A DNA stretch of 64,000 nt from Belliella pelovolcani (GTDB lineage: Bacteria > Bacteroidota > Bacteroidia > Cytophagales > Cyclobacteriaceae), in assembly GCF_900156785.1 (NCBI RefSeq), contig NZ_FTOP01000001.1, positions 1-64,000 on the forward strand, written 5' to 3'. The first letter of the stretch is position 1. Each line of letters starts with the position of its first letter. Positions 12,589 through 29,987 of the stretch are shown here, piece by piece. The notes under the pieces were generated by a model. That model was not told the origin of the DNA. It was given only the letters and a program-made list of their open reading frames with translations, and searched no databases. The translations under genes were made by a program, and so were the position numbers.

Positions 12589-15069
12589 TCAGAGGCTACT
12601 CAACAACCGTTCCAAAGTTGCCTCATCTTGAATCAATACTTCTCTTGCTTTGCTTCCTTCAAAAGGTCCCACAACTCCAGCTGCCTCCAACTGATCTACA
12701 ATTCTACCAGCTCTGTTGTAGCCCAATTTTAATTTCCGTTGAATCAAGGATGTACTTCCCTGTTGGTGCATTACTATTAGTCTTGCCGCATCATCAAAAA
12801 GTGGGTCTCTATCTGCTAAGTCCACATCCAATGAACTGCCATCCCCATCTTCTCCTTCAAACTCTGGCAATAAGTACGCGTCTGGATAACCTTTCTGCTC
12901 TCCAATCCAATCACATATGGCATCGACCTCTGGGGTATCCAAGAATGCACACTGCAATCGGGTCATTTCTGACCCAGAAGATAGCAACATATCCCCCATA
13001 CCGATCAATTGATCTGCACCTCCTGCATCTAGGATAGTCCTACTATCAATCTTCGAAGTCACTCTAAATGACAACCTCGCTGGGAAGTTGGCTTTGATAA
13101 TCCCAGTGATTACATTCACAGAAGGCCTCTGAGTAGCGACAACCAAGTGTATTCCAATCGCTCTAGCTAGCTGAGCCAACCTCGCAATAGGACCTTCTAT
13201 TTCCTTACCCGCAGTCATCATCAAATCAGCCAACTCATCAATCACCAACACAATGTAAGGCATAAATCGATGACCTTTTTCTGGGTTCAATTTGCGCGCT
13301 ACAAACTTGGCATTGTATTCTTTAAGGTTTCTACAGCCTGCATCCTTGAGCAAATCGTAGCGATTGTCCATCTCAATACAAAGTGAATTCAAAGTGTAGA
13401 TCACTTTCTTAGTATCTGTAATAATCGCCTCCTCAGCTCCTGGAAGCTTCGCAAGAAAATGCCGCTCAATCTTATTGAAAAGTGTCAATTCCACTTTTTT
13501 CGGATCTACCAAGACAAATTTCAGCTGAGAAGGGTGCTTCTTGTAAACCAAGGAGGCCAAAATCATATTCAAACCAACTGACTTTCCTTGACCAGTAGCA
13601 CCTGCCATCAGCAAGTGAGGCATTTTGGCCAAATCCATCACAAATACTTCATTGGAAATGGTCTTACCCAATGCAACCGGCAGATCTTTGTCGCTATGCA
13701 TAAACTTCTCAGTTCCCAATACTGCTCTTGCAGGGACGAGCTCTCTGTTTTTATTAGGAACTTCTATACCTATGGTACCTTTACCTGGAATAGGAGCAAT
13801 GATCCTGATGCCCAAAGCTGCCAAACTCAAGGCTATGTCGTCTTCTAAATTCTTGATTTTGGAAATCTTGACCCCTGGATCTGGAACGATTTCATACAAC
13901 GTAACTGTAGGACCAATTGTCGCCTTGATTTCTTGAATTCCTATCTTGAAATTGACTAGTGTCTCTACGATCTTATTTTTGTTCTCTTCTAGCTCTTGCC
14001 TCGTTACTGTCACCTTTTTGACATCGTACTCATTGAGCAAATCGAGTGTTGGGTACTGGTATTTTGGAAGGTCTAGGGTAGGGTCGTAAGGATCTAGATT
14101 GCTTACTTGATCTGCTGTCCTTTCTTCCACAGCCACATTGGTGACAGAAAATTTCTTTTCTTCCTCAACAAGAGCTTCTAACGACTCTTCTTCATCTGGA
14201 AGCTCGTCCATTCCTTCGATATTAAAAGCAGGATCTGGCGCTGGTGTTTTGCTTTGCTGTTCTTCTTTGTTGATCGTCCAAGAGCTACCATCATCCTCTA
14301 AAGCTTCCTCGCTAAACTCCTCCTCTTCAAGAACCTCTTCCTGCTCTTCTATCATTTTCTTGAATAAGTCATCGGCATCATCGTCTAAATCACCCTCATC
14401 TGATCCCAGCTGGTCTTGATCAGAACGGCTAGAAGTAAGCCAATCCAGCTGATCTATGTTGAAGAAAAAGACCACAAAAATCAATAATGCGCCACCAATC
14501 AAAACGAAGGTTCCCCACCCTAAAAAATCATTGGCTAATCTCCCTAATTCGTAACCAAATCCACCACTGAGGTTATTGAAGGCTGAATACCCCTCTACCA
14601 GCTGAATGATGTAGCCAGTAAACAGACCCAACCAAAAGGTGAAGAAAATCGCGAAGATACTATACCGTGATAAAGAAAAAAGACTGACTTTGAAGGAAAG
14701 CTTAACTCCCAACAAAAACAAAAAAGGTGGCAATAAAAAAGCCGCTATTCCAAACCATCTTTTGATAAAGACTTCTGCTAAATAAGCCCCAAAGTATCCT
14801 TGCCAATTTTTGGTCTGTGAGGCATTTTCACGGATGCTATTTTCTACTTCTGACAAAGTGCTTTGATCAGCCTCTCCTGTAAATAAGTAACTCACAAAGG
14901 CAAAAAACATCACGATCGCTAAAATAATCAGGACTATCCCGATAGTAATAGGGATTTTCTTATCCTGAAGAAAAGTCAAAGAAAACTTCTTCTTGCGCTT
15001 CTCTCCAGCCTTAGCTCTGGTTTCGCTCTTCTTCCTAAAAGTATTTGTTCTGGGTGCTTCTGAAGCCAT
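12589..15069 (-). CDS. ftsK: DNA translocase FtsK/SpoIIIE family
   Basis: An 826-residue septal DNA translocase that pumps chromosome termini and activates XerCD recombination at dif. Four or five membrane helices occupy residues 39-205, then a short acidic linker (about 215-310, rich in Asp/Glu), much shorter than in E. coli. The alpha/beta motor follows, with Walker A GATGQGKS at 490-497 and Walker B around IVLVIDELADLMM. The DNA-reading gamma winged helix is at about 755-826 (ARLIVMHQQGSTSLIQRKL, GYNRAGRIVDQLEAAGVVGP). It precedes the LolA-like gene and follows pyrD by 59 bp; xerD lies 2.2 kb upstream on the same strand, a functional partner. Confidence 0.96.
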   Translation of the reverse strand: MASEAPRTNTFRKKSETRAKAGEKRKKKFSLTFLQDKKIPITIGIVLIILAIVMFFAFVSYLFTGEADQSTLSEVENSIRENASQTKNWQGYFGAYLAEVFIKRWFGIAAFLLPPFLFLLGVKLSFKVSLFSLSRYSIFAIFFTFWLGLFTGYIIQLVEGYSAFNNLSGGFGYELGRLANDFLGWGTFVLIGGALLIFVVFFFNIDQLDWLTSSRSDQDQLGSDEGDLDDDADDLFKKMIEEQEEVLEEEEFSEEALEDDGSSWTINKEEQQSKTPAPDPAFNIEGMDELPDEEESLEALVEEEKKFSVTNVAVEERTADQVSNLDPYDPTLDLPKYQYPTLDLLNEYDVKKVTVTRQELEENKNKIVETLVNFKIGIQEIKATIGPTVTLYEIVPDPGVKISKIKNLEDDIALSLAALGIRIIAPIPGKGTIGIEVPNKNRELVPARAVLGTEKFMHSDKDLPVALGKTISNEVFVMDLAKMPHLLMAGATGQGKSVGLNMILASLVYKKHPSQLKFVLVDPKKVELTLFNKIERHFLAKLPGAEEAIITDTKKVIYTLNSLCIEMDNRYDLLKDAGCRNLKEYNAKFVARKLNPEKGHRFMPYIVLVIDELADLMMTAGKEIEGPIARLAQLARAIGIHLVVATQRPSVNVITGIIKANFPARLSFRVTSKIDSRTILDAGGADQLIGMGDMLLSSGSEMTRLQCAFLDTPEVDAICDWIGEQKGYPDAYLLPEFEGEDGDGSSLDVDLADRDPLFDDAARLIVMHQQGSTSLIQRKLKLGYNRAGRIVDQLEAAGVVGPFEGSKAREVLIQDEATLERLLSSL

Positions 15070-15128
15070 ATGAATATTTTGCTACTGAATATTAGAATCG
15101 AATTAATCGAAATATACAGAATTCTATT

Positions 15129-16172
15129 TTATTGATTTTTGAAATGTGACAGAAGTCCTTTTTTGATTGCTTTGATCATCCCAGGACCTTCATAAATCAT
15201 GCCTGAGTAGACCTGTACCAAGCTAGCTCCAGCTTCCAGTTTATCTATTGCATCTTGTGCCGTGAAAATCCCCCCAACACCTATGATAGGAAATGCGCGA
15301 TTGGATTTTTCGGCCAAATATCGAATCACTTCAGTACTCCGCTGGGCCAATACCTTACCGCTCACTCCTCCGGCACCGATTGCCTCCACTTTATTGGCAT
15401 CTGTCTTCAGTTGACTCCTGTCTATAGTCGTATTGGTAGCGATGACTCCATCGATTCCTGTCTCTTGGACGATATCAACAATATCATCCAGCTGCCCACC
15501 AGTCAAATCTGGAGCTATTTTCAATAATATTGGTTTTGGGTTTTCCTTGGACTCATTCGCCTCCTTTACTGCTGAAAGGAGTTTTTTCAAAGGTTCTTTT
15601 TCCTGAAGATCTCTGAGGTTAGGTGTGTTGGGAGAACTCACATTGACTACAAAATAATCTACAAAAGGATGCAAGGCTTCTAGACAAATCAAATAGTCAT
15701 CCACTGCATTTTCATTTGGAGTGACTTTATTTTTACCAATATTACCACCTATGATGACATTCGATTTCCTTTTCTTTAGCCTTTCTACCGCTGCTGCCAC
15801 CCCCCCATTGTTAAAGCCCATTCTATTGATCAAGGCTTCATCTTCTGGTAGCCTGAAAAGCCTAGGAAGTGGATTGCCGTCTTGTGGTTTTGGGGTGAGC
15901 GTTCCGATTTCTATATAGCCAAAGCCCAATAAAGCCATCTCATCAATCAGCTTAGCATCCTTATCAAATCCCGCAGCCAAACCCACTGGGTTTTTAAATT
16001 TCAACCCAAAAACTTCTCTTTCCAATCGCGGATCATCTAAGCTAAATTGGTTCGCTATCAGGCCCTTGACCAATGGAAGATTGAAAGTTTTCTTGATCCA
16101 AGCAAATGTAAAATGATGGGCAGACTCTGGGTTCTTTTTGAAAAGAAGGGGTTTGATGATGGACTTGTACAC
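15129..16172 (-). CDS. pyrD: Dihydroorotate dehydrogenase (quinone), class 2
   Basis: A 347-residue FMN enzyme of the inner membrane that oxidises dihydroorotate to orotate with quinone. The N-terminal helix extension ([23 protein letters not shown]), typical of the class 2 membrane-associated form, is present. The FMN barrel shows [12 protein letters not shown], the substrate loop [23 protein letters not shown] with the class 2 catalytic serine, and the C-terminal phosphate loop GVGGI and VQVYSG. The start codon is GTG. It shares the strand with ftsK and pyrF. Confidence 0.95.
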
Positions 16173-20981: not shown

Positions 20982-21029
20982 TTAGTTGTCCTATTTCCCA
21001 AAGGTACCCTTGGGAAATAGGACAACTAA
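20982..21029. repeat. 48-bp near-perfect palindrome at the IS deletion junction
   Basis: Two 24-nt arms facing each other without a spacer, with one mismatched pair; the outermost 20 bp of each arm match perfectly (left arm starts TTAGTTGTCCTATTTCCCAA). It contains the end of the truncated orfB reading frame. Confidence 0.85.
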
Positions 21030-21212
21030 CTTTTGCTTTATGCTGCTTTTTGGGTTGGCCCAAAATATCTTTCTCTGGACTTCTCCCTTGTGGTATGATG
21101 AACCTTTTGGTTTGTAATATAGACTGCTTCGGGGAACCTCCAATACTTCACACTGTTTCCTTATAGAAAGCCCCTTATAATCGGAACAAACCAATGTCGC
21201 CCGGTCATTCAT
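20991..21212 (-). pseudogene. IS3-family transposase orfB, 5' fragment
   Basis: A 73-codon frame. The N-terminus (SIRKQCEVLEVPRSSLYYKPKG) is that of IS3-family OrfB, whose full form is about 280-300 residues and carries a DDE integrase core. Everything after about residue 45 diverges and no DDE residue is left; the end runs into the 48-bp palindrome. Its start overlaps the end of orfA (ATGA). A run of eight A followed by G on the coding strand (minus, near 21232-21240) inside the end of orfA is a likely slippery site for programmed -1 frameshifting to OrfAB. Confidence 0.75.
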
Positions 21213-21502
21213 ATCCCCAGTTTCTTGCAGCTTTTTTTTAAAAAGTCATTCTCTACTTTTAGCTCTCCGATCTGGGCATAGAGCTGCTCAAGGGCAGGGC
21301 CTTCTTCCTTTTTCTTTGAATGATTCTTTTCAAATACAGCTGACATATTATCCAAAAACTCACCCTTCCACTTGGAGATAATCACAGGTCTAACATCGAA
21401 CTTCTTGGACAATTCAGCCAACGTAAACTGATTCTTGATTGCTTCAAGGGCCACTTTTGCCTTGAACTCAGGAGAAAACTTTCGTCTTGTTTGCTTATTC
21501 AT
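21209..21502 (-). CDS. IS3-family transposase OrfA (helix-turn-helix)
   Basis: A 97-residue protein. RRKFSPEFKAKVALEAI at residues 5-21 is the IS3/IS911 helix-turn-helix start, followed by FTLAELSKKFDVRPVIISKWKGEFL and a leucine-zipper-like C-terminus used for dimerisation (LEQLYAQIGELKVENDFL). OrfA binds the terminal repeats. It is intact, but its partner OrfB is truncated, so the element is probably dead. Confidence 0.85.
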   Translation of the reverse strand: MNKQTRRKFSPEFKAKVALEAIKNQFTLAELSKKFDVRPVIISKWKGEFLDNMSAVFEKNHSKKKEEGPALEQLYAQIGELKVENDFLKKSCKKLGI

Positions 21503-21531: not shown

Positions 21532-21792
21532 TTAACCTCTGGTCTCAATTTTGGGGAATATTATATAAGAACAAGTTTTAAAATTACTTCCAAAATTGTT
21601 TAATTTAACTTTTGATCTAGAAATAGCCACAGGGGAAATTTTATATTTATAAAGAAATGGAGATAAATTAGAAAACTCATTGTAGCAAACAGGGCAATCA
21701 TCTAGAAGTACGAAAAGAAATCCTTCATATTCGCCTATATCAAATTCTTCAACAAGTTCATATAATCTATTATTCATCACAATATCATACAT
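21532..21792 (-). pseudogene. Truncated redoxin-like gene joined to the tail of a CarboxypepD-like gene
   Basis: The 86-codon frame is not an ordinary gene. Codons 1-8 and the 70 bp before them (to about 21860) encode the sequence HEHSYEKSEKKKKVRISF and MYDIVM. This matches the C-terminal tail QEHTNEKPDKKKKVGIDF, then IDAVVM, of the CarboxypepD-like protein at 26839-27984. Codons from about 17 onwards give EGFLFVLLDDCPVCYNEF, a CxxC redoxin-like strand-and-loop, related in layout to the CQGC of the lipoprotein at 24460. The frame ends inside the inverted repeat of the IS remnant, so the 3' part of the redoxin-like gene was removed by the insertion. Probably a broken end of the second peptide cassette. 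Confidence 0.6.
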
Positions 21793-21920
21793 AAAACTAA
21801 TTCTAACCTTCTTCTTCTTTTCAGATTTTTCATAGCTGTGTTCATGAAAAAGATGCTTCCCGTTTATCCTATTACATGTAAAAGAGATACAAAAGCAATA
21901 AAAACATAGGCTAATAATGC

Positions 21921-24467
21921 TTATTTCACAACAAACTCAAAGTTCACTTTACCCATTTTTCCATCTGCACTTAGGACTTCAAAATTGCCTGCAAATATGG
22001 ATCGAATGTCTGAAGTATAAAGCTCAATCTCCGCTTTTCCATTGGAATCTGTAAAAAGATAAGGATACCATCCCAACGTATTTCTATAATCAGCCTCAGG
22101 ATCATTTTTTGATTCATGATCAGGATATTCTTTGGCTTGGAATCCTGCCCCTACAAAAAATCCCTTCGTCCTTGTCATATTATACAACTTCATCAATTCT
22201 TCATCCGTGTATTTTGGGTATTTGTAAATTACTCTTCTCCAGTTTCCTAGACTCAAATCATAATGTTTACTTGCATTACCAAAAACTTTTTCTCTATCAC
22301 TATCAAAAACCTCTATATATTCACCTCCTTCAACTGGCTTAATGTTCTTATCAGCGCAATAATAGCAGTTTAAAACACTCCATACATGTCCAAATCCATT
22401 ACACAAAAAATCATCATTAAAATCTAATTTTGCTCTTTCAGCTAATTCACCAATGAATTTTTCTCTTTCTTGCTCAATACGCTTTCCCCTGACTACAAAC
22501 TCACTGAGCAGAATCATATTCCTATCAAAAGCAGGGAGATCTAATTTTTGCTCTGAACTACCATAATCTATACTTGGATAGTTAAAATTTGCAGTTTTTA
22601 GAACCGATTCTAAGTCATCAAAGGGGTCTTTTATTGTAAGAATTATTTCACTTGATCCTTTTGGTAGGGCTTTTATGTAGAGGTATTCATCTTTTCCAAA
22701 GTCTAATTCTTCCGGATAGATTTCAAAATTCCCCTCTCGATCCAATGGAATAAATGCTGTGTTACCTTCATTATCTCCCCTAAATAAAAGCCCATAATTG
22801 GAATCATTCTCTTTGCTAGAATTCCTATATTTTATCTGGCCAGTAAGCTTATTTCCTAGAGGGTATTCTACTGTTCTATAGTTTTCAAATTTTTGTTCCA
22901 ACCAAATGTATTTTTCAATATTGCTCGATTCTAGAATATTATTGATTTTTCTAAAATCATTTTCCTCTGATAAACCTAGTATTGATTCAAGATTTGGATT
23001 CGTCCCCATTTGTGTAATTATATGGGCAAAGGTATATAAGCTTCTATTGTATCTAGAATTCTGGTAAAGCTTGTCCGATACAGTTCCTCCTATTTGTACA
23101 CCTTCAAGCGGGGTGCCTTTTGAATCTTTCACTGTAAAGGTGACTTTAACTTTTTCTCTGCTTCCGTACTCCTGTTGATTGAGCTTGGCTTCAACAATCA
23201 GTTTTCCATTATTCTCTATCCATGTTAATCTTTCCCCAAGTGGTTCAGCTTGATCATTGAATATCGCGATCTCTGCTATTCCTGAGGGAATATTTGTCAA
23301 TGGAATCTTAATTTGGGAATTGTCTTCAAGTATCAATTCATGGAAAACATGCACGATACCCCTCACTTGTAGCCTCAAAAAGTGTTTTTGACCAGGCCAA
23401 GAGGTTTGTATTGTCATCAGGAGGGTGTCAGCCAAAGTATTTAGGTTAATGGTGACCCCGCGATCCTCGATCTGATCAAATACGGTCATTGTATCTGAGG
23501 GTGTATCATTCCATAAAATTCTGTAAGATGACCCTTTCTCTGGCTTTACTTTAAATTTACCCAATCCTTCACTTCCCATATTGATGAATTGAAGTATTTC
23601 TCCATCTTTCAACAATACTCCCTGCCTTGATTGATTTTCATTATTATCCCCAGCAGCTGACAGCATTACAAAGCTTTCTTGATTATGAATTAATTTTCCA
23701 CTTTCTGGGTGAAAGGTTATCTCTTTGGGATTTGTGATGTCTTTCAGCTCTATTCTTTGGAAAACATGCTTATTTCCTAAAGTAACATCCAGGTCAATCC
23801 ATTGACTTCCTGTTCTATTGAGAGGAATTTCTAATCTTCCTTCAAGATTTGACTGAAAGGTGGTTTCATGTATTGATTTCCTTTTTGAGTTGAGCCAAGT
23901 AATTTGAATTTTAGCATCTGACAATCTATTACCCTGCTTATCAGATACGATCAGGCTTAAAGTGTCAGAATAATCATCTTGATCAGATAAATTGTGTCTG
24001 ATGATGATCTCTGGATTGATAAACTGTCTGATCTCTATCTCCTTAAAAGCATGGTAGTCTTTCATTTCATGATAGACGGATGAAGGCGAATAGGCTTCCA
24101 AATTGTAAATACCGGGATTTAGGTTTTCATTTAAGAGAACCATACCATCTGTGAATCCTGAGTAAATGCCATACTTCTCTTCCCAAAAAACTTCCCTACT
24201 TATTTGATTCACTAATCTTAGATACAAGATGCTATCTCCTTGGTATGGACTTAAAAATTGCCCATCAAGTTGCAAAAATTTGAACCAAAGCTGCTCTCCA
24301 GTCTCGTATATATCTTTGTCTGTCTGCAAATACTCAATAGGTCTGGCATTTTTCCTTGCTTTTTCTTCAAATTCTGCAACCAATACTTTCTCGTACAAAG
24401 TTTGGCTTTGAACAAAATTGCTCAAGCTTAAAAAAATTAAATGTAAAATAAGGCGGTATTTAATCAT
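21921..24467 (-). CDS. MG2-domain (macroglobulin-like) cell-envelope protein
   Basis: An 848-residue protein exported by a signal peptide (residues 1-22). After a short linker, YLQTDKDIYETGEQLWFKFLQLDGQ at about 45-69 is the MG2-type entry strand seen in alpha-2-macroglobulin-like proteins of Bacteroidota, followed by many Ig/MG-like beta domains (GSSYRILW; TFTVKDSKGTPLEG). Its C-terminus aligns with that of the protein at 58944-61640, with TLGWYPYLFTDSNGKAEIELYTSDI. Where that protein has a TonB plug-like segment, this one has a cysteine cluster (CNGFGHVWSVLNCYYC, about residues 688-703). It follows the thioredoxin-like lipoprotein gene with an 8-nt overlap. The function is unknown; an outer-membrane or periplasmic scaffold is inferred. 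Confidence 0.65.
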   Translation of the reverse strand: MIKYRLILHLIFLSLSNFVQSQTLYEKVLVAEFEEKARKNARPIEYLQTDKDIYETGEQLWFKFLQLDGQFLSPYQGDSILYLRLVNQISREVFWEEKYGIYSGFTDGMVLLNENLNPGIYNLEAYSPSSVYHEMKDYHAFKEIEIRQFINPEIIIRHNLSDQDDYSDTLSLIVSDKQGNRLSDAKIQITWLNSKRKSIHETTFQSNLEGRLEIPLNRTGSQWIDLDVTLGNKHVFQRIELKDITNPKEITFHPESGKLIHNQESFVMLSAAGDNNENQSRQGVLLKDGEILQFINMGSEGLGKFKVKPEKGSSYRILWNDTPSDTMTVFDQIEDRGVTINLNTLADTLLMTIQTSWPGQKHFLRLQVRGIVHVFHELILEDNSQIKIPLTNIPSGIAEIAIFNDQAEPLGERLTWIENNGKLIVEAKLNQQEYGSREKVKVTFTVKDSKGTPLEGVQIGGTVSDKLYQNSRYNRSLYTFAHIITQMGTNPNLESILGLSEENDFRKINNILESSNIEKYIWLEQKFENYRTVEYPLGNKLTGQIKYRNSSKENDSNYGLLFRGDNEGNTAFIPLDREGNFEIYPEELDFGKDEYLYIKALPKGSSEIILTIKDPFDDLESVLKTANFNYPSIDYGSSEQKLDLPAFDRNMILLSEFVVRGKRIEQEREKFIGELAERAKLDFNDDFLCNGFGHVWSVLNCYYCADKNIKPVEGGEYIEVFDSDREKVFGNASKHYDLSLGNWRRVIYKYPKYTDEELMKLYNMTRTKGFFVGAGFQAKEYPDHESKNDPEADYRNTLGWYPYLFTDSNGKAEIELYTSDIRSIFAGNFEVLSADGKMGKVNFEFVVK

Positions 24468-24921
24468 CCCAAGTTACTTTATCTACTAATGTTTTGTCTG
24501 TTTCTGGTGATATATAATCCAATGCTTTGATATGTGACCCTTCCAACCTCAATACAATGGGGTAAATACTTTTATTTGAAGTTAATAAAAACTCATTATC
24601 TAAATCAATCAATACATTATCTCTATTTCTTAAATCAACACCTATTTTATTTTGTAACATTTTCAATGATTCAATAGCTGTGAGTATAAAAAAAATATCA
24701 TTTCTCTCAATGTTATTTTTAATGTATTCTTCTACACCTGAGATACACCCTTGACAACCTAGTCCCGGGAGTATTATCACATATTTATAGGACGAAATTC
24801 CATCCAGCTTTGTTAATTGTTGTTCGTAATAAACTTTGCCTTCGTCTTTACTTTCACAAGAAAATAAAAAACAAATTGAGGCACAGATAATGAATACTGA
24901 ACTTAATAACCTAATTTTCAT
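24460..24921 (-). CDS. Thioredoxin-like lipoprotein with CQGC motif
   Basis: A 153-residue lipoprotein. The lipobox FLFSC places the lipidated Cys at about residue 21. The mature part has a predicted strand YKYVIILPGLG followed by a CQGC motif (a CxxC redox pair at the usual thioredoxin position) and a helix (GVEEYIKNNI). The rest does not match classical thioredoxins, which is typical of the diverged redoxin lipoproteins of Bacteroidota peptide loci. It is translationally coupled on both sides: it overlaps the MG2 gene by 8 nt and the beta-propeller lipoprotein gene by 11 nt. An oxidoreductase acting on the cysteines of the secreted peptide is an attractive inference. Confidence 0.7.
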   Translation of the reverse strand: MKIRLLSSVFIICASICFLFSCESKDEGKVYYEQQLTKLDGISSYKYVIILPGLGCQGCISGVEEYIKNNIERNDIFFILTAIESLKMLQNKIGVDLRNRDNVLIDLDNEFLLTSNKSIYPIVLRLEGSHIKALDYISPETDKTLVDKVTWDD

Positions 24922-26086
24922 TCTCTATTAGCTTAAATAGTTTAAAAATCATATAATCTTCATTGCTTGATTGAAAATCAATGTACTCTATAAGAAGTCC
25001 ATCTTGAGACACCATCATATTATCAACATTCCAGTTTTTTAATGTCCCAATATTCGTTTTTCCCAATAAATTGAACTTGTGATCATAAATGATGATGCTG
25101 ATCGACTTTCCAGATAAATCTTTAAAACCTCCAGTATCTGACAATCCATTCATCAAAACCCGATAATATACATTTTTATATTTATCAAATTTGATCCCTG
25201 CATAGATATCTGATTCGATCAAGTGATTGAGCATCATTTCTCTAGTAGGTCTCTTATTTGAGATGGGCTTTACCGTTTTTGAACCACTTTCAAGCGCCTT
25301 GATTTCATTCAAATCTTCACTTTCAAGGGAAGCAGTGAATAGGCTATTGGATATCGGAAAACTATAGACCATTAATTTTTCAATTGGGTTCCAATCATAA
25401 TGTACGGTGGTATAGTAAGGATCATCCCAATTGAACTTGCTACCATATATAGTTTTTGGATAAGAGTGGTTATAAACTATTTCATTGTTGTCTAAACTCA
25501 AAGAAGCCGTGAATTTGAAAGAATTCAAGATATTATCAGGAATAGCCCACATGAAACTACCCGAAAAAACCAATTTGTTATCGACCTTAATGAATGGGGT
25601 AACGGTTTTAGGGAAAAACTGCGGATAAGATAATATCCAATTATTATCATTCATTGGTGCATTGTTTATCAGCGAAGTTACACTTAACTTTTTTCCTTTA
25701 TCATTTAACAAAACCAAGTCATTCTTGAGCATATCGAAGACAAATATTGAATCTCTATTCAAGATATGGTATCCCACTGGTCTTAGTACTTGATTCTCTC
25801 CCTCAGATGTAAGAACCGTTCTTTCCAGGTATTCATTTTGACTTAAATCGTACCAATAAATTGAGGCGTTGTAGGCATTGAAAAAAGTTAGGATATTATC
25901 TTCTTCTAATAATTGAATAAAAGGAGCTTTGGGTGGGCTGACACTATCTAATGGGATGACTAGTCCGTCTTCTTCAGTTAGGGCAAACCTGTCTTGGAAA
26001 TCACTACTATCAATAGATTTTTGATTACAATAAACCAAAATCAAACATGAAAGCAATAGAATAATTAGTTTAGTAAATTTAAACAT
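24911..26086 (-). CDS. DUF4221 / 6-bladed beta-propeller lipoprotein (cassette A)
   Basis: A 391-residue lipoprotein. The signal peptide ends in a lipobox (LILVYC) at about residue 20. The mature region has repeated strands with hydrophobic-aromatic pairs (FVFDMLKNDLVLLNDKGKKL; VIPLDSVSPPKAPFIQLL) fitting the DUF4221 / 6-bladed beta-propeller families of Bacteroidota. It is exposed at the outer membrane or periplasm and binds an unknown ligand. It is the second gene after the peptide gene of cassette A, following an intrinsic terminator at 26110-26144, and it overlaps the thioredoxin-like lipoprotein gene by 11 nt. Confidence 0.7.
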   Translation of the reverse strand: MFKFTKLIILLLSCLILVYCNQKSIDSSDFQDRFALTEEDGLVIPLDSVSPPKAPFIQLLEEDNILTFFNAYNASIYWYDLSQNEYLERTVLTSEGENQVLRPVGYHILNRDSIFVFDMLKNDLVLLNDKGKKLSVTSLINNAPMNDNNWILSYPQFFPKTVTPFIKVDNKLVFSGSFMWAIPDNILNSFKFTASLSLDNNEIVYNHSYPKTIYGSKFNWDDPYYTTVHYDWNPIEKLMVYSFPISNSLFTASLESEDLNEIKALESGSKTVKPISNKRPTREMMLNHLIESDIYAGIKFDKYKNVYYRVLMNGLSDTGGFKDLSGKSISIIIYDHKFNLLGKTNIGTLKNWNVDNMMVSQDGLLIEYIDFQSSNEDYMIFKLFKLIENEN

Positions 26087-26109
26087 GTAGATAGAATAAA
26101 GAATTTAAA

Positions 26110-26144
26110 AAAGAGGCTGTCGTCAAAATTAGATCAGCCTCTTT
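26110..26144 (-). terminator. Intrinsic terminator/attenuator between peptide gene A and the propeller lipoprotein
   Basis: A perfect 10-bp stem AAAGAGGCTG / CAGCCTCTTT with a 15-nt loop. On the minus strand it is followed by six T. It sits 82 bp after the peptide A stop and 24 bp before the lipoprotein gene, so part of the transcript should end here and part read through. Confidence 0.85.
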
Positions 26145-26226
26145 ATATTTAGAAAGTTTTACAAGTCAGATTTCATTAAACTAAGTTTTTTTGAACTATC
26201 ATTGACTAATAAAAAATATTATCCTC

Positions 26227-26466
26227 TTACGGCTCTAAGGTAGGAGGTGGCGGAAGTTCAGAACCTCCTCCAGTACCGGGCTGACCATTTTGTGGAGTTG
26301 TTGGATCACATTCAGTATAACCAATAGCAGCAAAGCACATTTTCGATAATGAACATTTCCCATTCATTATAACCCCTGGAGGACATTCTGCATGAGTTGG
26401 ATTTATCCCACTGAACGCAATCAGTAAGGAAAAAGCTGCGATAAAGTTTAAACATTTTCTCATCAT
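26227..26466 (-). CDS. Short secreted cysteine-containing peptide A
   Basis: A 79-residue precursor. The basic start and hydrophobic core (residues 5-22) end in NPTHA, a type I signal peptidase site before Glu-Cys. The mature peptide has four cysteines in the first 27 residues (C-x9-C-x5-C-x8-C) and a Gly/Pro-rich tail with a run of four prolines. No catalytic domain is visible. The general make-up (short secreted peptide next to DUF4221/beta-propeller lipoproteins) resembles the NVEALA-type peptides of Bacteroidota, but the sequences are too short to assign. The ATG pair at 26466/26463 sits directly after the duplicated leader, as does peptide B. Confidence 0.7.
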   Translation of the reverse strand: MMRKCLNFIAAFSLLIAFSGINPTHAECPPGVIMNGKCSLSKMCFAAIGYTECDPTTPQNGQPGTGGGSELPPPPTLEP

Positions 26467-26768
26467 AACAATTTTTGTTTTGGTTAAAATATGATTTTCA
26501 ATGACTCTAAAAGTTTGACCACTAATAAAGCTGTTTACAAGAAAGAAAGAAGCAATTTTTAGTTTAAAATATTTTGAATAATTTAAGTTTATAAAAATAA
26601 CAAAATGAAAGTTATTTACACATTAAATCTGTTTAAATCACAATTCTATATGTTCATACTAGATATCTTTAGTTTAAGAAAAGTTATCAGTTTTGTGATT
26701 TTTTAATTGGAATGAAGGCAGGTATCGAAGTATTTAGGTATTTATTTCGTCCGTCCCGAAGGGACTTT
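26467..26768 (-). repeat. Duplicated leader, copy A (upstream of peptide A)
   Basis: About 300 bp immediately upstream of the peptide A start codon. It is nearly identical to the leader at 29420-29726, with a few substitutions and indels in its outer half. It ends in a small hairpin GTCCC-GAA-GGGAC at 26753-26765. It should contain the promoter and 5' leader of the peptide gene. No TAnnTTTG element was found on the minus strand. Confidence 0.9.
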
Positions 26769-26838
26769 TGGGGATTTTTTTCACCACGTACCTTTATACT
26801 TTGCGAATACATACCTCAAATAAATATTGTTAAAACAT

Positions 26839-27984
26839 TCAATCCCCCTTCTTCATCACAACAGCGTCAATAAAATCAATACCAACCTTCTTCTTTTTAT
26901 CAGGCTTTTCATTGGTATGTTCTTGGAAAACTAGTTTACCTTTAATCATTTTTGTACCAAGCTCTGGAGAATTGCCTATCCTTTTCAGTTCAATTATTTC
27001 AACCTGCTTTACGTAAGATAACCCATCTACCTTAAAGTAATCAATTCTAAAATCAAGTTCTCCGTTCAAGTAAAACTCCATAACATTTCGATGAGTAGAA
27101 GGCACTTTAAGAATTTTTGCTTGAATAGAATTAACATGATAAGAATCAATATTAACCAAATAAACAATCTCTGATTGGCTTCCTCTTCTAGCCAGTTTGA
27201 CAAATTTCTCACCATCCTTTTCTAGTAAATCTTCAAATATCCAATTAGAAGTAGCATTAATTTCAGGCATATACAGTGTAAGTCTTTCAAACCAATTCTT
27301 TTTTGATAAAAACTCGTCGATAAAAGCATCATGTTGCTGATCAGGTGGTCCAAATTGGAAATCAAAGCCAACAAGTTCACCAGCTTTAGCATAGGAATAT
27401 TTTTGCTCACCATCTACATTGATAAGTTTTTTAAAATATACATCATCATTGTTGACAAACTGATTTTTCCCAGTAGCCCTTCTGAATCCTTGAGCATCGT
27501 ATAAAATCTCCATCTCATAATTGAATGTCGGCTCACCATCTTCAATTACTCGTTCTGAATAACTTGCTAGTCCTGTATAACTTTTGGTATAGAATGTTTT
27601 TTCTACCATTTCCATAGTCTTGAGATAAAAATCAGATGGGCTGATACCAATATCCACAACTGAGACTCCGCTCAGCTCAATATCATTCTCTTCTAATAAA
27701 ACCTCATTGATTTGATCTCTTTTAAGTTGACTAATTTGTAGTGTTTTGACCTCGTACCCCATGAATGACACCTTGATCTCCTCATCTGAGTATTTGGAAG
27801 GAATAGTCAAGGAACCCATTCCGTCTACATTCGTTACCACCCCTTGAAGAGAATTGCCGATTTGAATATGAGCATAACTTACTGGTGCAGCATCAGCTGC
27901 TCGCTTGACAGCAAAAGTATATGTCTGCCCAATCGCTCCCCAACAAAACAACATCAATCCGAGCAACGTAAAAAAACTCCTCAT
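26839..27984 (-). CDS. CarboxypepD_reg-like protein (cassette B)
   Basis: A 381-residue exported protein. A signal peptide (about residues 1-19) is followed by a carboxypeptidase regulatory-like beta-sandwich at about 20-110 (YTFAVKRAADAAPVSYAHIQIG; VSFMGYEVKTLQIS). The remaining 270 residues are a separate conserved region, with QKYSYAKAGELVGFDFQFGP and a basic tail EKPDKKKKVGIDFIDAVVM. I do not know the function of the second region. A tail with the same sequence is found broken at 21780-21860, showing that a second copy existed. It follows the propeller lipoprotein gene after only 2 bp and precedes peptide A's leader. Confidence 0.68.
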   Translation of the reverse strand: MRSFFTLLGLMLFCWGAIGQTYTFAVKRAADAAPVSYAHIQIGNSLQGVVTNVDGMGSLTIPSKYSDEEIKVSFMGYEVKTLQISQLKRDQINEVLLEENDIELSGVSVVDIGISPSDFYLKTMEMVEKTFYTKSYTGLASYSERVIEDGEPTFNYEMEILYDAQGFRRATGKNQFVNNDDVYFKKLINVDGEQKYSYAKAGELVGFDFQFGPPDQQHDAFIDEFLSKKNWFERLTLYMPEINATSNWIFEDLLEKDGEKFVKLARRGSQSEIVYLVNIDSYHVNSIQAKILKVPSTHRNVMEFYLNGELDFRIDYFKVDGLSYVKQVEIIELKRIGNSPELGTKMIKGKLVFQEHTNEKPDKKKKVGIDFIDAVVMKKGD

Positions 27985-27986
27985 AA

Positions 27987-29135
27987 CTATTCCAATTTAA
28001 ATTTATAGACTACAATCTCTTCATTATTAGGGTTTCCACCAGAACCATCAGCAAAATAATAATCACCTATTTTTCCTATGATTGCAAAAGAAGTGGGGAC
28101 TTCTACATCACCAATCAGCACCTTCCTCTTATAAATCTGCATTCGTTGAGGGTTATCTGCATAGTCAAAGCTAGTTCTATCGGCAACACCTTCTGTATAT
28201 GTTCTAAAAACCATATCATCTTCAGGAATATATTTAATATGCCTGTAAAAACCCTTTTGTGCTCTATTTGGCCTCCAGTAGGTATCATAGTCTTCCAAAT
28301 TATTGACTTGAACGTAGTCCTGAAGCATCCCTTTTCCACTTACTCCAAATGCTTCTTTAAAATTAAAATCCCTATCGGCTATATAGATCAAAGAGTCTGG
28401 CTCAAAGCTAAGATAGATATCTTCGCCTGTTATATCATGATAGTAGAAATCAAAATGTGGTATATATTTATAATTGAGATAAATAGCTGGCTTCTTTCCA
28501 AGTATTCTTAGAATCTTGCCAGTCTTCAAGTCAAACTCTCCATAATTGGCTGTTTCTTGATAATATTTGTCATGCATCAGAAAATTCAGCTTTGGGTTTG
28601 AGGTCTCTATTTTCGTATAAAATTTCCCTTCTCGTACAAATATTTCATTGTTTACATATTTGACTTCATAGATACCAGGATCATCAGGTCGCGGGTTGGA
28701 TTCAATCTCCTTCATAGAGCTGTTGTGGTAAAAGTCCAAGACGGTTCTCTGTGAAAGCTCATTATTCCTATCAAATTCATAGATGGTATATCCACTCAAA
28801 AAATATTTGATATCACCATTCATGCTAAAACTCTCAAATCTTTGTATTTCAGAAGGACCTTCTCCTTTGGTAATAGGTGCATCAATAAAATGACCCTCAG
28901 AATCGAATCTCAGTAGTTGAGAATTGAGTTTGTCAAGAAAAAATAGCTCACCATTTTGTAGAAATGAATTCCCTTTGCCTATCAAAAAATCTGATGAAAA
29001 ATCAATTTTCAACAAAGAAACTGTATTAATAATATCAGGACTCTTTATCGAAGTTATTGATAAGTCTAAAGAGTTTTGATCTCTTGTATCATTACAGGCT
29101 AAAATTATAAATATTAAAATAAATAGTTTTTTCAT
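27987..29135 (-). CDS. 6-bladed beta-propeller lipoprotein (cassette B)
   Basis: A 382-residue lipoprotein. The lipobox IILAC places the lipidated Cys at about residue 14. The sequence contains repeated propeller strands (GELFFLDKLNSQLLRFDSEGHF, SFSMNGDIKYFLSGYTIYEFD), typical of the 6-bladed beta-propeller / DUF4221 lipoproteins of Bacteroidota. It probably faces the periplasm or cell surface and is the structural counterpart of the protein at 24911-26086, although the two sequences are diverged. It follows peptide B and its hairpin, and is 2 bp from the CarboxypepD-like gene. Confidence 0.68.
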   Translation of the reverse strand: MKKLFILIFIILACNDTRDQNSLDLSITSIKSPDIINTVSLLKIDFSSDFLIGKGNSFLQNGELFFLDKLNSQLLRFDSEGHFIDAPITKGEGPSEIQRFESFSMNGDIKYFLSGYTIYEFDRNNELSQRTVLDFYHNSSMKEIESNPRPDDPGIYEVKYVNNEIFVREGKFYTKIETSNPKLNFLMHDKYYQETANYGEFDLKTGKILRILGKKPAIYLNYKYIPHFDFYYHDITGEDIYLSFEPDSLIYIADRDFNFKEAFGVSGKGMLQDYVQVNNLEDYDTYWRPNRAQKGFYRHIKYIPEDDMVFRTYTEGVADRTSFDYADNPQRMQIYKRKVLIGDVEVPTSFAIIGKIGDYYFADGSGGNPNNEEIVVYKFKLE

Positions 29136-29148
29136 AGTATAAAGAAGT

Positions 29149-29174
29149 TCCCCCCTAGTAAAAACCAGAGGGGA
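29149..29174 (-). terminator. Hairpin between peptide gene B and the propeller lipoprotein
   Basis: An 8-bp stem with one mismatch (TCCCCCCT with AGAGGGGA) and a 10-nt loop, GC-rich, just after the peptide B stop codon. There is no long T run on the minus strand, so it may be a weak terminator, an attenuator or an RNA-stability element. Its place matches that of the terminator in cassette A. Confidence 0.5.
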
Positions 29175-29182
29175 GATTTAAC

Positions 29183-29419
29183 TTAATTCATTTCTGGCTC
29201 TTCAATGATAATTTCAAAAGGTTCACAATCAGCTGTGGCTTTACACTTAAGGTAATCACAAGATGCTCTTAGACTAATTTTATGACCAGGTAAACAATAT
29301 CCCATTCCAACAGAATGGCATTTTGCATTGTCACAACTGGCTTCTGCGGATGATTCAATAGGATTCCATGTAAGCGCCATCACTCCTGCTAACAAACTGA
29401 ATAAAATTTTCTTCTTCAT
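29183..29419 (-). CDS. Short secreted cysteine-rich peptide B
   Basis: A 78-residue precursor. The start MKKKILFSLLAGVMALTW is a signal peptide, probably cleaved after ESSA (residue 25). The mature peptide has six cysteines at residues 29, 34, 42, 54, 59 and 65, enough for three disulphides, and an acidic tail (EIIIEEPEMN). It begins directly after the duplicated leader (29420 onwards). A longer frame to 29512 exists, but it would read through the leader and lacks a signal peptide at its start. The function is unknown; signalling, toxin or matrix roles are all possible. It looks like a NVEALA-type small peptide in context, not in proven homology. Confidence 0.7.
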   Translation of the reverse strand: MKKKILFSLLAGVMALTWNPIESSAEASCDNAKCHSVGMGYCLPGHKISLRASCDYLKCKATADCEPFEIIIEEPEMN

Positions 29420-29726
29420 AACAATTTTTGTTTTGGTTAAAATATGATTTTCTTTGACTCTAAAAGTTTGACTACTAATAAAGCTGTTTACAAGAAAGAA
29501 AGAAAGAAGCAAATTTTTAGTTTAAAATATTTTGAATAATTTAAGTTTATAAAAATAACAAAACAACAGTTATTTACACATTTTATCTGTTTAAATCACA
29601 ATTCTATATGTTCATACTAGATATCTTTAGTTTAAGAAAAGTTAAAAGTTTTTGTGATTTTTCAATTGAATAGAAGGTTAGTATCGGAGTATTAGGCAAT
29701 TATATCGTCCGTCCCGATGGGACTTT
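29420..29726 (-). repeat. Duplicated leader, copy B (upstream of peptide B)
   Basis: About 305 bp upstream of peptide B, nearly identical to 26467-26768 with a 4-nt expansion of a GAAA run and a few substitutions. It ends in GTCCC-GAT-GGGAC at 29711-29723. A degenerate third copy of just this end motif is at about 29773-29795. Confidence 0.9.
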
Positions 29727-29987
29727 AGGGTGGTGTTCGCCTTTTTATTTGTGGATGAAACCTAACATTAGGATATCGGTCGTCACGAGGGGACTATTTG
29801 AGATTTGGATACATATTTTTTTTCTTTGCGTCACTTTGTGTTTCTCTGTGGCTAAAAGAAAAAGAAAACCACAGAGAAAAGTTTTGAAAGGAATTAATCT
29901 TACTGTTTTTAAATCCTATTCGTACGCTTTTCTGTGGTAAAAGAAAAACTGTGTTCATCTGTGTTAATCCGTGGTAAAATCCCCCTT
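29727..29987. other. Intergenic region with degenerate repeat motifs
   Basis: No gene. The stretch holds a degenerate copy of the leader end motif, and then sequence such as CTTTGCGTCACTTTGTG, GTTTCTCTGTGGC, and near 29945-29975 a run of CTGTGTTCATCTGTG and TTAATCCGTGG. These word-like motifs recall dispersed intergenic repeats found in many bacterial genomes. Nothing coding is seen. Confidence 0.45.

Follow-up and report, generated by a model that had tools for sequence, protein, structure and literature searches.

Exchangeable leader, peptide and propeller cassettes with a variable CTTT tract in Belliella, probably built around a disulphide-bonded peptide

Two tandem units on the minus strand of a 64,000-nt stretch of Belliella pelovolcani DNA (the window) are members of a set of cassettes in which a common non-coding leader is followed by a small exported Cys peptide and a propeller-type lipoprotein. 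Comparison of related genomes shows this module, the matching of its close peptide and lipoprotein types, variation of a leader repeat between species and exchange of cassettes. The best explanation of the whole, to which we give a probability of roughly 0.6, would be a disulphide peptide and its cognate propeller, tuned by repeat slippage and used for competition or self-recognition; that the module contains a bound disulphide peptide we consider quite likely. The order of peptide then propeller is conserved in other genomes, and the same gene pairing, as read from their DNA, recurs in related bacteria.

The ORF listing returned both units with the ORFs and coordinates given in the preliminary description, and all their features lie on the minus strand. 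Unit B begins with leader B (29420..29726), the common non-coding region 5′ of peptide B, which is indeed shared with unit A (91% identity over 302 nt) and holds element E1, ACTAAAAATTTG (29510..29521; almost invariant across 35 copies), and the repeat tract CTTTCTTTCTTTCTT (29492..29506; n = 3 by repeat-tract search). Peptide B follows (29183..29419; 78 aa, signal-type N-terminus; G002 relative 78% identical), with all six of its Cys in the mature part as described, then an 11-bp hairpin (29148..29175), propeller-type lipoprotein B (27987..29135; 382 aa; DUF5128 just below cut-off, 22.2 versus 22.9 bits) and a CarboxypepD_reg-like protein (26839..27984; 381 aa; PF13715, E = 1.1e-8) whose gene is present in the G002 unit B too. 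Unit A begins with leader A (26467..26768), in which E1 (26553..26563) is one T shorter than in other copies and the repeat tract (26539..26552) has n = 2, against n = 7 in the orthologous G003 cassette. Its peptide A (26227..26466; 79 aa, signal-type N-terminus; G003 orthologue 92% identical) has the four Cys ascribed to it in the mature part and five in all, and a terminator-like hairpin (26108..26146) separates it from propeller lipoprotein A (24911..26086; 391 aa; DUF4221, PF13970, E = 2.9e-31), so hairpins lie 3′ of both peptides as reported. Next come a CxxC thioredoxin-like lipoprotein (24460..24921; 153 aa; lipobox Cys and CxxC; AF2 pLDDT 89.7) and an MG2-like protein (21921..24467; 848 aa; PF01835 just below cut-off, E = 1.2e-7, 32.4 versus 32.8 bits). 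The broken CarboxypepD tail assigned to unit A comes down to a 104-nt remnant (21770..21873), 73% identical to 26849-26952. By eye, an 86-aa ORF with CPVC (21532..21792) may be the relic of an additional unit, and it gave no match to the CxxC-lipoprotein profile; the array ends in an insertion-sequence relic (20991..21502) with an HTH_Tnp_1 ORF (PF01527, E = 3.6e-10) plus a second, short ORF that matched nothing. The claim that both units have the same order therefore stands for leader, peptide, hairpin and propeller-type lipoprotein and fails beyond them: unit B has neither a CxxC lipoprotein nor an MG2 protein, an MG2-like gene was seen in the unit A type alone, and neither MG2 nor CarboxypepD belongs to cassettes in general.

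The cassette set is larger than the two units first noted, and the CTTT repeat of the leader was absent from the preliminary description. The window genome has six leader copies, five of them with a peptide and the sixth more diverged and traced via its repeat tract (BLAST gave five strong copies and an extra row at E = 0.007 without a cassette). Seven of the eight Belliella genomes examined carry the leader, in 37 copies: 29 precede an intact exported Cys peptide (followed by a propeller-size lipoprotein in 28 and by a 269-aa protein in one), two a broken peptide gene ahead of a lipoprotein, and six a lipoprotein without a peptide. A propeller-like partner persists without an intact peptide in 5/37 copies (the peptide gene is broken in two of these, and in three the lipoprotein stands alone). 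The leader-core pattern gave 32 matches in six of the eight genomes, and none when reversed. From 31 of these matches, window copy A, two tract finds and the G006 BLAST match we compiled 35 copies by hand, and the set of 37 adds L291 (the last pattern match) and L294; BLAST rows overlapping others were dropped, and L006, L292 and L293 have no cassette, the latter two lying outside the 37. A peptide with its partner was found by reading in 29/35 and by script in 30/35, a figure that we cut to 29 because in L058 the ORF taken is only the end of a broken gene. Core-pattern matches in other genera led to full cassettes plus one without an intact peptide (G102), a peptide with a different partner (G027), a lipoprotein without a Cys peptide (G076) and nothing recognisable (G100). 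As a structured RNA or riboswitch the leader was rejected, since RNAalifold on the 35 copies with the repeat collapsed gave a weak hairpin (-1.7 kcal/mol) and no conserved fold. Palindromes 5′ of the leader are REP-like, and the leader as a mobile-element end was considered and set aside.

The Cys count was even in 57 of 59 non-redundant mature peptides (44 with four; p = 3e-15), in a set of 67 before redundancy filtering that excluded the truncated L058 ORF, had been preselected throughout for at least two Cys and had its cleavage sites placed by a simple rule rather than SignalP, wrongly in some rows. Because of this even number disulphides are likely, in agreement with the disulphide-bearing secreted peptide first proposed, and the peptides would be exported via Sec and become disulphide-bonded. 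Mature peptides within types are under purifying selection (dN/dS 0-0.35 in nine pairs); the rapid diversification suggested before, taken as positive selection, was not seen inside types in these pairs, and given the low values peptide diversity lies instead between discrete, exchangeable types. Chance ORFs are ruled out by conservation, by the even Cys counts and by the matching of close types. A hairpin of at least 10 bp separates the peptide and partner genes in 21/30 cassettes, and cassette hairpins were better than at least 19/20 shuffles in 19/30; such a hairpin may cause the peptide to be produced in excess over its partner.

Lipoprotein A proved DUF4221-like as described (109.7 bits against a PF13970 cut-off of 23.4), and its AF2 model (pLDDT 82.9), with 3s9j as top PDB match (E = 2.9e-23), has a predicted propeller fold. 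Lipoprotein B gave no match to PF13970, and its relative in G002 likewise falls just below the DUF5128 cut-off; partners C and D of the window genome fit no Pfam family and both match a broader in-house profile. Three six-bladed-propeller families (DUF4221, DUF5128 and TolB_like) take in most cassette partners, a propeller family being matched by eight of the ten cassette lipoproteins scanned (two of the eight below cut-off), and a lipobox-like Cys is present in 32/35 first partners by a loose pattern and in two more by eye. Wherever two lipoproteins were at least 63% identical and peptides were present, the peptide type was identical (11/11 pairs, in a comparison that took in the truncated L058 ORF), although mere linkage would give such matching as well as cognate pairing. 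Weaker peptide likeness occurs with unrelated lipoproteins (J versus G005_3, 51% over 86 aa; G001_C17 versus the H peptides, 32-35% identity), and in types A and J the dS of peptide and propeller of one cassette is very different between species. The propeller is not obligatory, because in G002 the C2b peptide type precedes a non-lipoprotein of ~270 aa, as does a look-alike in G027. Propellers with no Cys peptide upstream, which the preliminary description had regarded as speaking against its scheme, do occur: among 17 full-length DUF4221 genes in the window genome, 15 lack a credible peptide, which means that only some propellers are marked by one.

We propose that the cognate six-bladed-propeller lipoprotein binds its peptide in the cell envelope, and that the most likely use would be competition or self-recognition among close relatives, in which the peptide would be the effector and its matched propeller a protector or receptor. 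Against this, we recognised no gene for antagonism or signalling. The specific assignment of effector to the peptide and protector to the propeller is tentative, at about one chance in three by our estimate, which we lowered slightly because one peptide type has a different partner. Alternatively the pairs could serve signalling, with the peptide as a species- or strain-specific pheromone, the propeller as its outer-membrane receptor or carrier, and exchange shifting the pherotype. That reading would suit the matched close types, the many discrete types per genus and the purifying selection inside them, and would make the lone lipoproteins eavesdropping receptors, but by eye no regulator, kinase or anti-sigma gene was noticed within the units (the Pfam scan covered the window neighbours), and a single genome may hold several different cassettes (the window genome has five with peptides), so we judge it unlikely.

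The CxxC lipoprotein, here called the redoxin, has only its lipobox Cys and CxxC as invariant columns among 18 relatives. Its predicted element order and CxxC position fit a thioredoxin fold (AF2), its PDB matches are weak and to thioredoxin-fold proteins (one at E < 0.001; TM 0.3-0.5), and it matched no Pfam family; by these comparisons it represents a new, putatively thioredoxin-like family that marks the module across the order. The redoxin profile gave at least 59 matches at E up to 1.3e-9, of which eight had built the profile and one lacked upstream DNA; among the 50 examined, 46 follow a propeller ORF, all 46 fitting the in-house DUF4221 profile (one with just 31 nt upstream). A Cys peptide stands ahead of the propeller in 38/46 of these loci versus 28/197 other large ORFs, a background that includes some cassettes whose partner the in-house profile misses, and under a peptide rule that, in this survey and that of propellers, admits some false ORFs (e.g. 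L010, L132, L151 and L171 in the latter). Pooled over 68 loci (70 looked at, two without a full propeller ORF), peptide and redoxin were both present in 17, one of them in 11 and in 2, and neither in 38 (p = 5e-7, loci not independent); the link also holds in relatives of propeller A (p = 2e-4, loci again not independent), and was not found when the phylum draw was taken by itself (5, 8, 1, 12; p = 0.16). The redoxin lipoprotein thus accompanies the peptide across many genomes, as the preliminary description had anticipated, and where present it would make or repair the disulphides. In longer stretches it comes directly after only 4/25 Belliella leader copies, so disulphides in Belliella must often form otherwise.

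Envelope redox or metal handling could also be imagined, in which the Cys peptide is a thiol-stress substrate or sensor, with the redoxin as its repair enzyme and a scaffolding role for the propeller like that in NHLRC2. The frequent adjacency of redoxin and propeller would fit this, and NHLRC2 fuses thioredoxin-like and NHL propeller domains that form one cleft (PMC6107167), so that a thioredoxin-like part lies beside a propeller in both, in one polypeptide there and in separate lipoproteins in Belliella. However, the rarity of the redoxin directly behind Belliella leaders tells against it, and neither the multitude of peptide types nor the exchange of cassettes would be explained; we consider it improbable. 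We know of no peptide gene that accompanies NHLRC2-like proteins.

The leader tract (CTTT)n ranges from n = 1 to n = 7 across 35 copies, with n ≥ 2 in 32 and changes by whole units. Among distinct longer CTTTCTTTCTTTCTT tracts in the eight genomes, 27/29 fall inside the leader (the reversed pattern, nearly identical in sequence, was unusable as a control). With the search expression used, the spacing of two conserved leader elements was measurable in 29 of the 35 copies; 24 of them gave 19, 23, 27, 31, 35, 39 or 43 nt, and the remaining five 20, 24, 30, 34 and 69 nt. Repeat number varies inside six of the ten peptide/cassette types with at least two close members (A, 2 versus 7; F, 2 versus 4; C, 4 and 4 versus 2; J, 4 versus 3; C13/C5b, 3 versus 6; C2/G006, 4 versus 1) and is constant inside four (B, E, H and G000_6/C40d); unit number therefore differs between lineages as in phase-variable promoters, here between species with one genome per species. 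On balance we favour the repeat as an expression switch: the leader would control expression, and slippage of its tract would tune or switch each cassette, so that clone-mates may express different sets. In Neisseria meningitidis the nadA gene has an upstream TAAA tract whose unit number alters spacing and expression, as measured (PMC2791445); both have an upstream tetranucleotide tract, that of Belliella being known from between-species sequence variation alone. The tract might instead be an inert slippage by-product in a conserved leader, without expression control. This is a serious possibility at somewhat more than one chance in three, and the three copies with n = 1, two of them (G005_5 and G006) with intact-looking cassettes, would fit it, whereas the near confinement of long tracts to the leader and the whole-unit changes with n ≥ 2 in nearly all copies argue against it.

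In G004 both window flanks (94-96% and 84-90%) surround one unrelated cassette at the same site. Cassette A is 95.0% identical to its G003 counterpart over 4975 nt while the single matched flank is at 75%, and cassette E is 99.3% identical over 2796 nt between genomes. By these alignments, cassettes replace one another at a single chromosomal site and pass from species to species, and the homologous leaders may serve for exchange between sites as well as species. A repeat tract combined with cassette exchange is also typical of variable surface structures, and peptide and propeller could jointly build a coat or adhesive structure that varies by phase to evade phages or grazers, with no free effector. 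Behind three leader copies lies a large lipoprotein and no peptide (cassette E twice, G005_1), and lipid anchoring of some peptides is possible because a loose lipobox pattern fits 11/30, both of which would accord with a coat; 19/30 peptides are without an anchor by that pattern, and we regard this reading as rather unlikely.

Among known systems, the bacteroidetocins (class IIf peptide toxins) of the same phylum come close: they are small four-Cys peptides with a leader of 15-16 aa that is cleaved at GG, and beside them lie a thiol oxidoreductase and an ABC transporter/peptidase (PMC6671954). Small four-Cys peptides near a thiol oxidoreductase, in Belliella a predicted one, are common to both; unlike the bacteroidetocins, peptides A and B have longer, hydrophobic N-termini with A-x-A-like ends by eye in place of a GG leader, the Belliella peptides have a propeller partner, and no ABC transporter/peptidase was found among eight cassette proteins and ten window neighbours scanned. 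Known defence systems were set aside, since PADLOC gave no match on eight proteins. If neighbours prove to be their targets, the cassette peptides would constitute a new source of peptides with narrow range and a novel means by which close relatives tell each other apart.

In the open-licence PMC literature neither NVEALA nor DUF4221 was found as a word, and the parts of it seen describe no such system for propellers, NHL, DUF5128, DUF4934 or TolB-like proteins with small peptides, nor for Bacteroidota phase variation by tetranucleotide repeat or cysteine-rich peptides. The cassettes give a testable anatomy to genes known by labels alone in a highly abundant phylum, with a cognate peptide, along with a new redoxin family, appearing to tie DUF4221, DUF5128, TolB_like and NVEALA together. 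They also suggest repeat-based switching of exported peptides in Bacteroidota. More speculatively, and doubtful at present, there may be a phylum-wide class of unrelated disulphide peptides, each served by its own propeller as protector or receptor and frequently by a redoxin of its own, which in Belliella would form a combinatorial identity code of CTTT-switched exchangeable cassettes with lone propellers as acquired protection against foreign peptides; the NVEALA peptides found in gut-type Bacteroidia would then belong to one and the same system. The NVEALA profile (PF14055) differs in having no match in the window genome, including none to peptides A and B at E up to 1, and none to four further peptides, three of Belliella and one of a different genus. 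The co-occurrence of NVEALA peptides and propellers, called established in the preliminary description, is without that published standing in the literature searched and is nevertheless seen here: in three genomes of another family, 10/10 PF14055 matches are followed by a DUF4221, DUF5128 or TolB_like propeller, in one locus after a second NVEALA-like ORF. As in the Belliella cassettes, these are small exported Cys peptides with the same propeller families, and by eye CxxC proteins lie nearby.

The minus strand of the window carries two units, A and B, between 21.5 and 29.7 kb, which share in order a leader (91% identity between A and B), a short exported-type Cys peptide, a hairpin and a lipoprotein of ~385 aa. 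Both its profile match and its predicted fold identify lipoprotein A as a DUF4221 propeller, and lipoprotein B matches DUF5128 slightly below the cut-off. Downstream, unit A encodes a 153-aa CxxC lipoprotein and an MG2-like protein, and unit B a CarboxypepD-like protein; the array ends in the window in an insertion-sequence relic. GTCCC-TCGGGAC palindromes and GTAGGTTTCAACCTAC-like repeats, which look like REP elements, lie 5' of several leaders, in the window (26734-26772, 29692-29730, 29763-29801) and again 5' of leaders in stretch L007 (8340-8440, 10980-11080), where 14733-15278 presumably encodes a REP-associated transposase.

Three more strong leader copies (C, D and E) were found in the same genome on contig C27 (46.7-51.4 kb), and a sixth copy, which has diverged further, lies at C30:103.9 kb. 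A different Cys peptide and lipoprotein stand behind each of C, D and the C30 copy, while copy E is followed by a 522-aa lipoprotein, the peptide being absent. Cassette E (L007:11382-14208; also L090) additionally encodes 179-aa and 225-aa proteins, and a Pfam scan of all three proteins returned no matches. Leader DNA is present in 7/8 genus genomes, and its core pattern gave 32 matches in 6/8 (reversed pattern, 0). Among the 37 leader copies examined in the genus, the peptide is intact in 29, and a propeller-size lipoprotein is the next gene in 28 of these; in the other (C2b of genome G002) a 269-aa protein without Cys follows. This peptide type, with a ~270-aa protein as its next gene and no propeller lipoprotein, maps to L208:2621 onward in G002; a look-alike at L098:8251-12050 in G027 has the same arrangement, with a 907-aa protein further along. 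Two copies have a broken peptide gene upstream of an intact lipoprotein, one through an early in-frame stop and one through a lost start. The remaining six have a lipoprotein and no peptide: three (E twice, G005_1) encode large lipoproteins whose propeller nature is not evident, two a ~390-aa lipoprotein immediately after the leader (G001 C22; L291, DUF4221), and one (L294) a lipoprotein after an unrelated 405-aa ORF. In the wider family the core pattern occurs in 10/245 genomes and 4/84 genera, including Belliella itself. Full cassettes occur in genome G102, of a different genus; there, unit A is represented by its propeller, CxxC and MG2 genes, with no intact peptide.

As the peptides are too dissimilar for direct searching, we used their partner proteins as queries. 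Relatives of propeller A (29 matches in 25 of 240 family genomes) often have a Cys peptide upstream and a CxxC lipoprotein downstream. In 68 pooled DUF4221 loci, which are related to one another and not independent, peptide and redoxin (the CxxC lipoprotein) were both present in 17, peptide only in 11, redoxin only in 2 and neither in 38 (p = 5e-7); the association was not significant in the phylum draw alone (p = 0.16). Stronger weight attaches to the search that began from the redoxin. Its profile was built on 18 CxxC lipoproteins, whose only invariant columns are the lipobox Cys and the CxxC; the protein has a predicted thioredoxin-like fold with weak PDB matches, and no family match in a Pfam scan. 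The profile matched at least 51/291 genomes and 28/115 genera of the order. Of 50 new matches examined, 46 sit directly after a propeller-size gene, all 46 of which match the DUF4221 profile made here, and a Cys peptide lies ahead of the propeller in 38/46, against a background of 28/197 other large ORFs in the same stretches. Within Belliella, a CxxC gene immediately follows only 4/25 leader copies. The window genome holds a further module on contig C16 (L101: 58-aa peptide, DUF4221 gene, CxxC lipoprotein), where no CTTT-leader core was seen. Among 59 non-redundant peptides, drawn from Belliella and from the order, the mature Cys number is even in 57 (p = 3e-15) and exactly four in 44; we regard the even counts as strong evidence that the peptides form disulphides.

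We then compared these loci with those of NVEALA peptides (PF14055). The NVEALA profile matched neither the window genome nor five Belliella peptides. However, in three genomes (presumably Bacteroidales) from a different family of the class, each of the ten NVEALA matches precedes a propeller of TolB_like, DUF5128 or DUF4221, scored above cut-off, with a second NVEALA-like ORF intervening at one locus. By eye, CxxC proteins adjoin several of these pairs; within one such array of G476 a signal-peptidase-like gene (L116:13835-14725), also assigned by eye, adjoins a CxxC protein. Among ten Belliella partners, eight match TolB_like, DUF5128 or DUF4221 (two below cut-off) and two none; partners C and D gave no family match in the Pfam scan but do match our broader DUF4221 profile. 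We conclude that NVEALA and Belliella peptides belong to one kind of module, in which the partner fold is preferred and the peptide sequence free. Few genomes in our draws have NVEALA (3/41 genomes in the other family; 3/296 in the phylum draw at E 0.001, one above cut-off).

Comparison of 30 Belliella peptide ORFs gave 17 sequence clusters. Lipoprotein pairs at least 63% identical, both with peptides, share a peptide cluster in 11/11 cases. Against strict pairing, peptides J and G005_3 are 51% identical over 86 aa, and G001_C17 and H 32-35%, yet the lipoproteins show no similarity in either case. At the window's own site, the close relative G004 carries one different cassette between matching flanks (94-96% and 84-90%). 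In G003, cassette A is 95.0% identical over 4975 nt beside a single matched flank at 75%, and two further cassettes follow, one being cassette E at 99.3% over 2796 nt, which lies on another contig in the window genome. In type A the lipoprotein dS is 0 and the peptide dS 0.2-0.7, and type J shows the reverse contrast, so that the two genes of a cassette can differ in history. Together, these comparisons show recombinational exchange of cassettes, sometimes piecewise. The preliminary description had proposed rapid diversification of the peptides; this was not borne out within types, where dN/dS of the mature peptides (0 to 0.35, nine pairs) indicates purifying selection.

The peptide N-termini suggest export via Sec; since 11/30 peptides fit a loose lipobox pattern, some may be lipid-anchored. 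The redoxin would act on the peptide disulphides, in parallel with the bacteroidetocin thiol oxidoreductase, for which a disulphide role has been proposed, in bacteria described in the same source as without general disulphide machinery (PMC6671954). Hairpins of at least 10 bp, mostly unlike in sequence, occur in 21/30 cassettes and would keep the partner at a lower level than the peptide. A propeller-like partner without a working peptide was found in 5/37 leader copies and the converse in 1/37, so that losses, in small numbers, lean toward the peptide. Such one-sided loss fits a protector that must outlast its peptide. The window genome has 18 DUF4221 matches in total, including six neighbouring lipoprotein genes without credible peptides (C39:209829-217935; L009-L013, L015), which could be stored protection; both this group and the one-sided loss would also fit receptors. 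Competition or self-recognition is the most likely putative use of the cassettes.

There is precedent both for pairing a Cys peptide with a dedicated oxidoreductase and for a repeat-tuned promoter. Our literature search returned no description of such a peptide-propeller system and, to our knowledge and in the papers searched, there is no account of the propeller as partner, of the exchangeable types or of the redoxin family; there is a sizeable chance that these modules form a class of their own.

Within the leader, a CTTT tract separates a near-invariant element, ACTAAAAAYTTG, from a second, TTTATTAGTGG. In 35 copies the tract has one (3 copies), two (3), three (8), four (12), five (6), six (2) or seven (1) units, and the ACTAAAAAYTTG-TTTATTAGTGG spacing is 19, 23, 27, 31, 35, 39 or 43 nt in 24/29 measurable copies and outside this 4-nt series in 5/29. 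Compared between species, unit number varies within 6/10 types having at least two close members. By analogy with nadA (PMC2791445), the unit number may control expression. Searching the eight genus genomes for CTTTCTTTCTTTCTT gave 29 distinct tracts after merging rows belonging to one leader, 27 of them inside a leader. The other two (L209, L210), with near-identical surroundings in two species, apparently sit in a coding sequence and, by eye, may fall within the start of a regulator gene.
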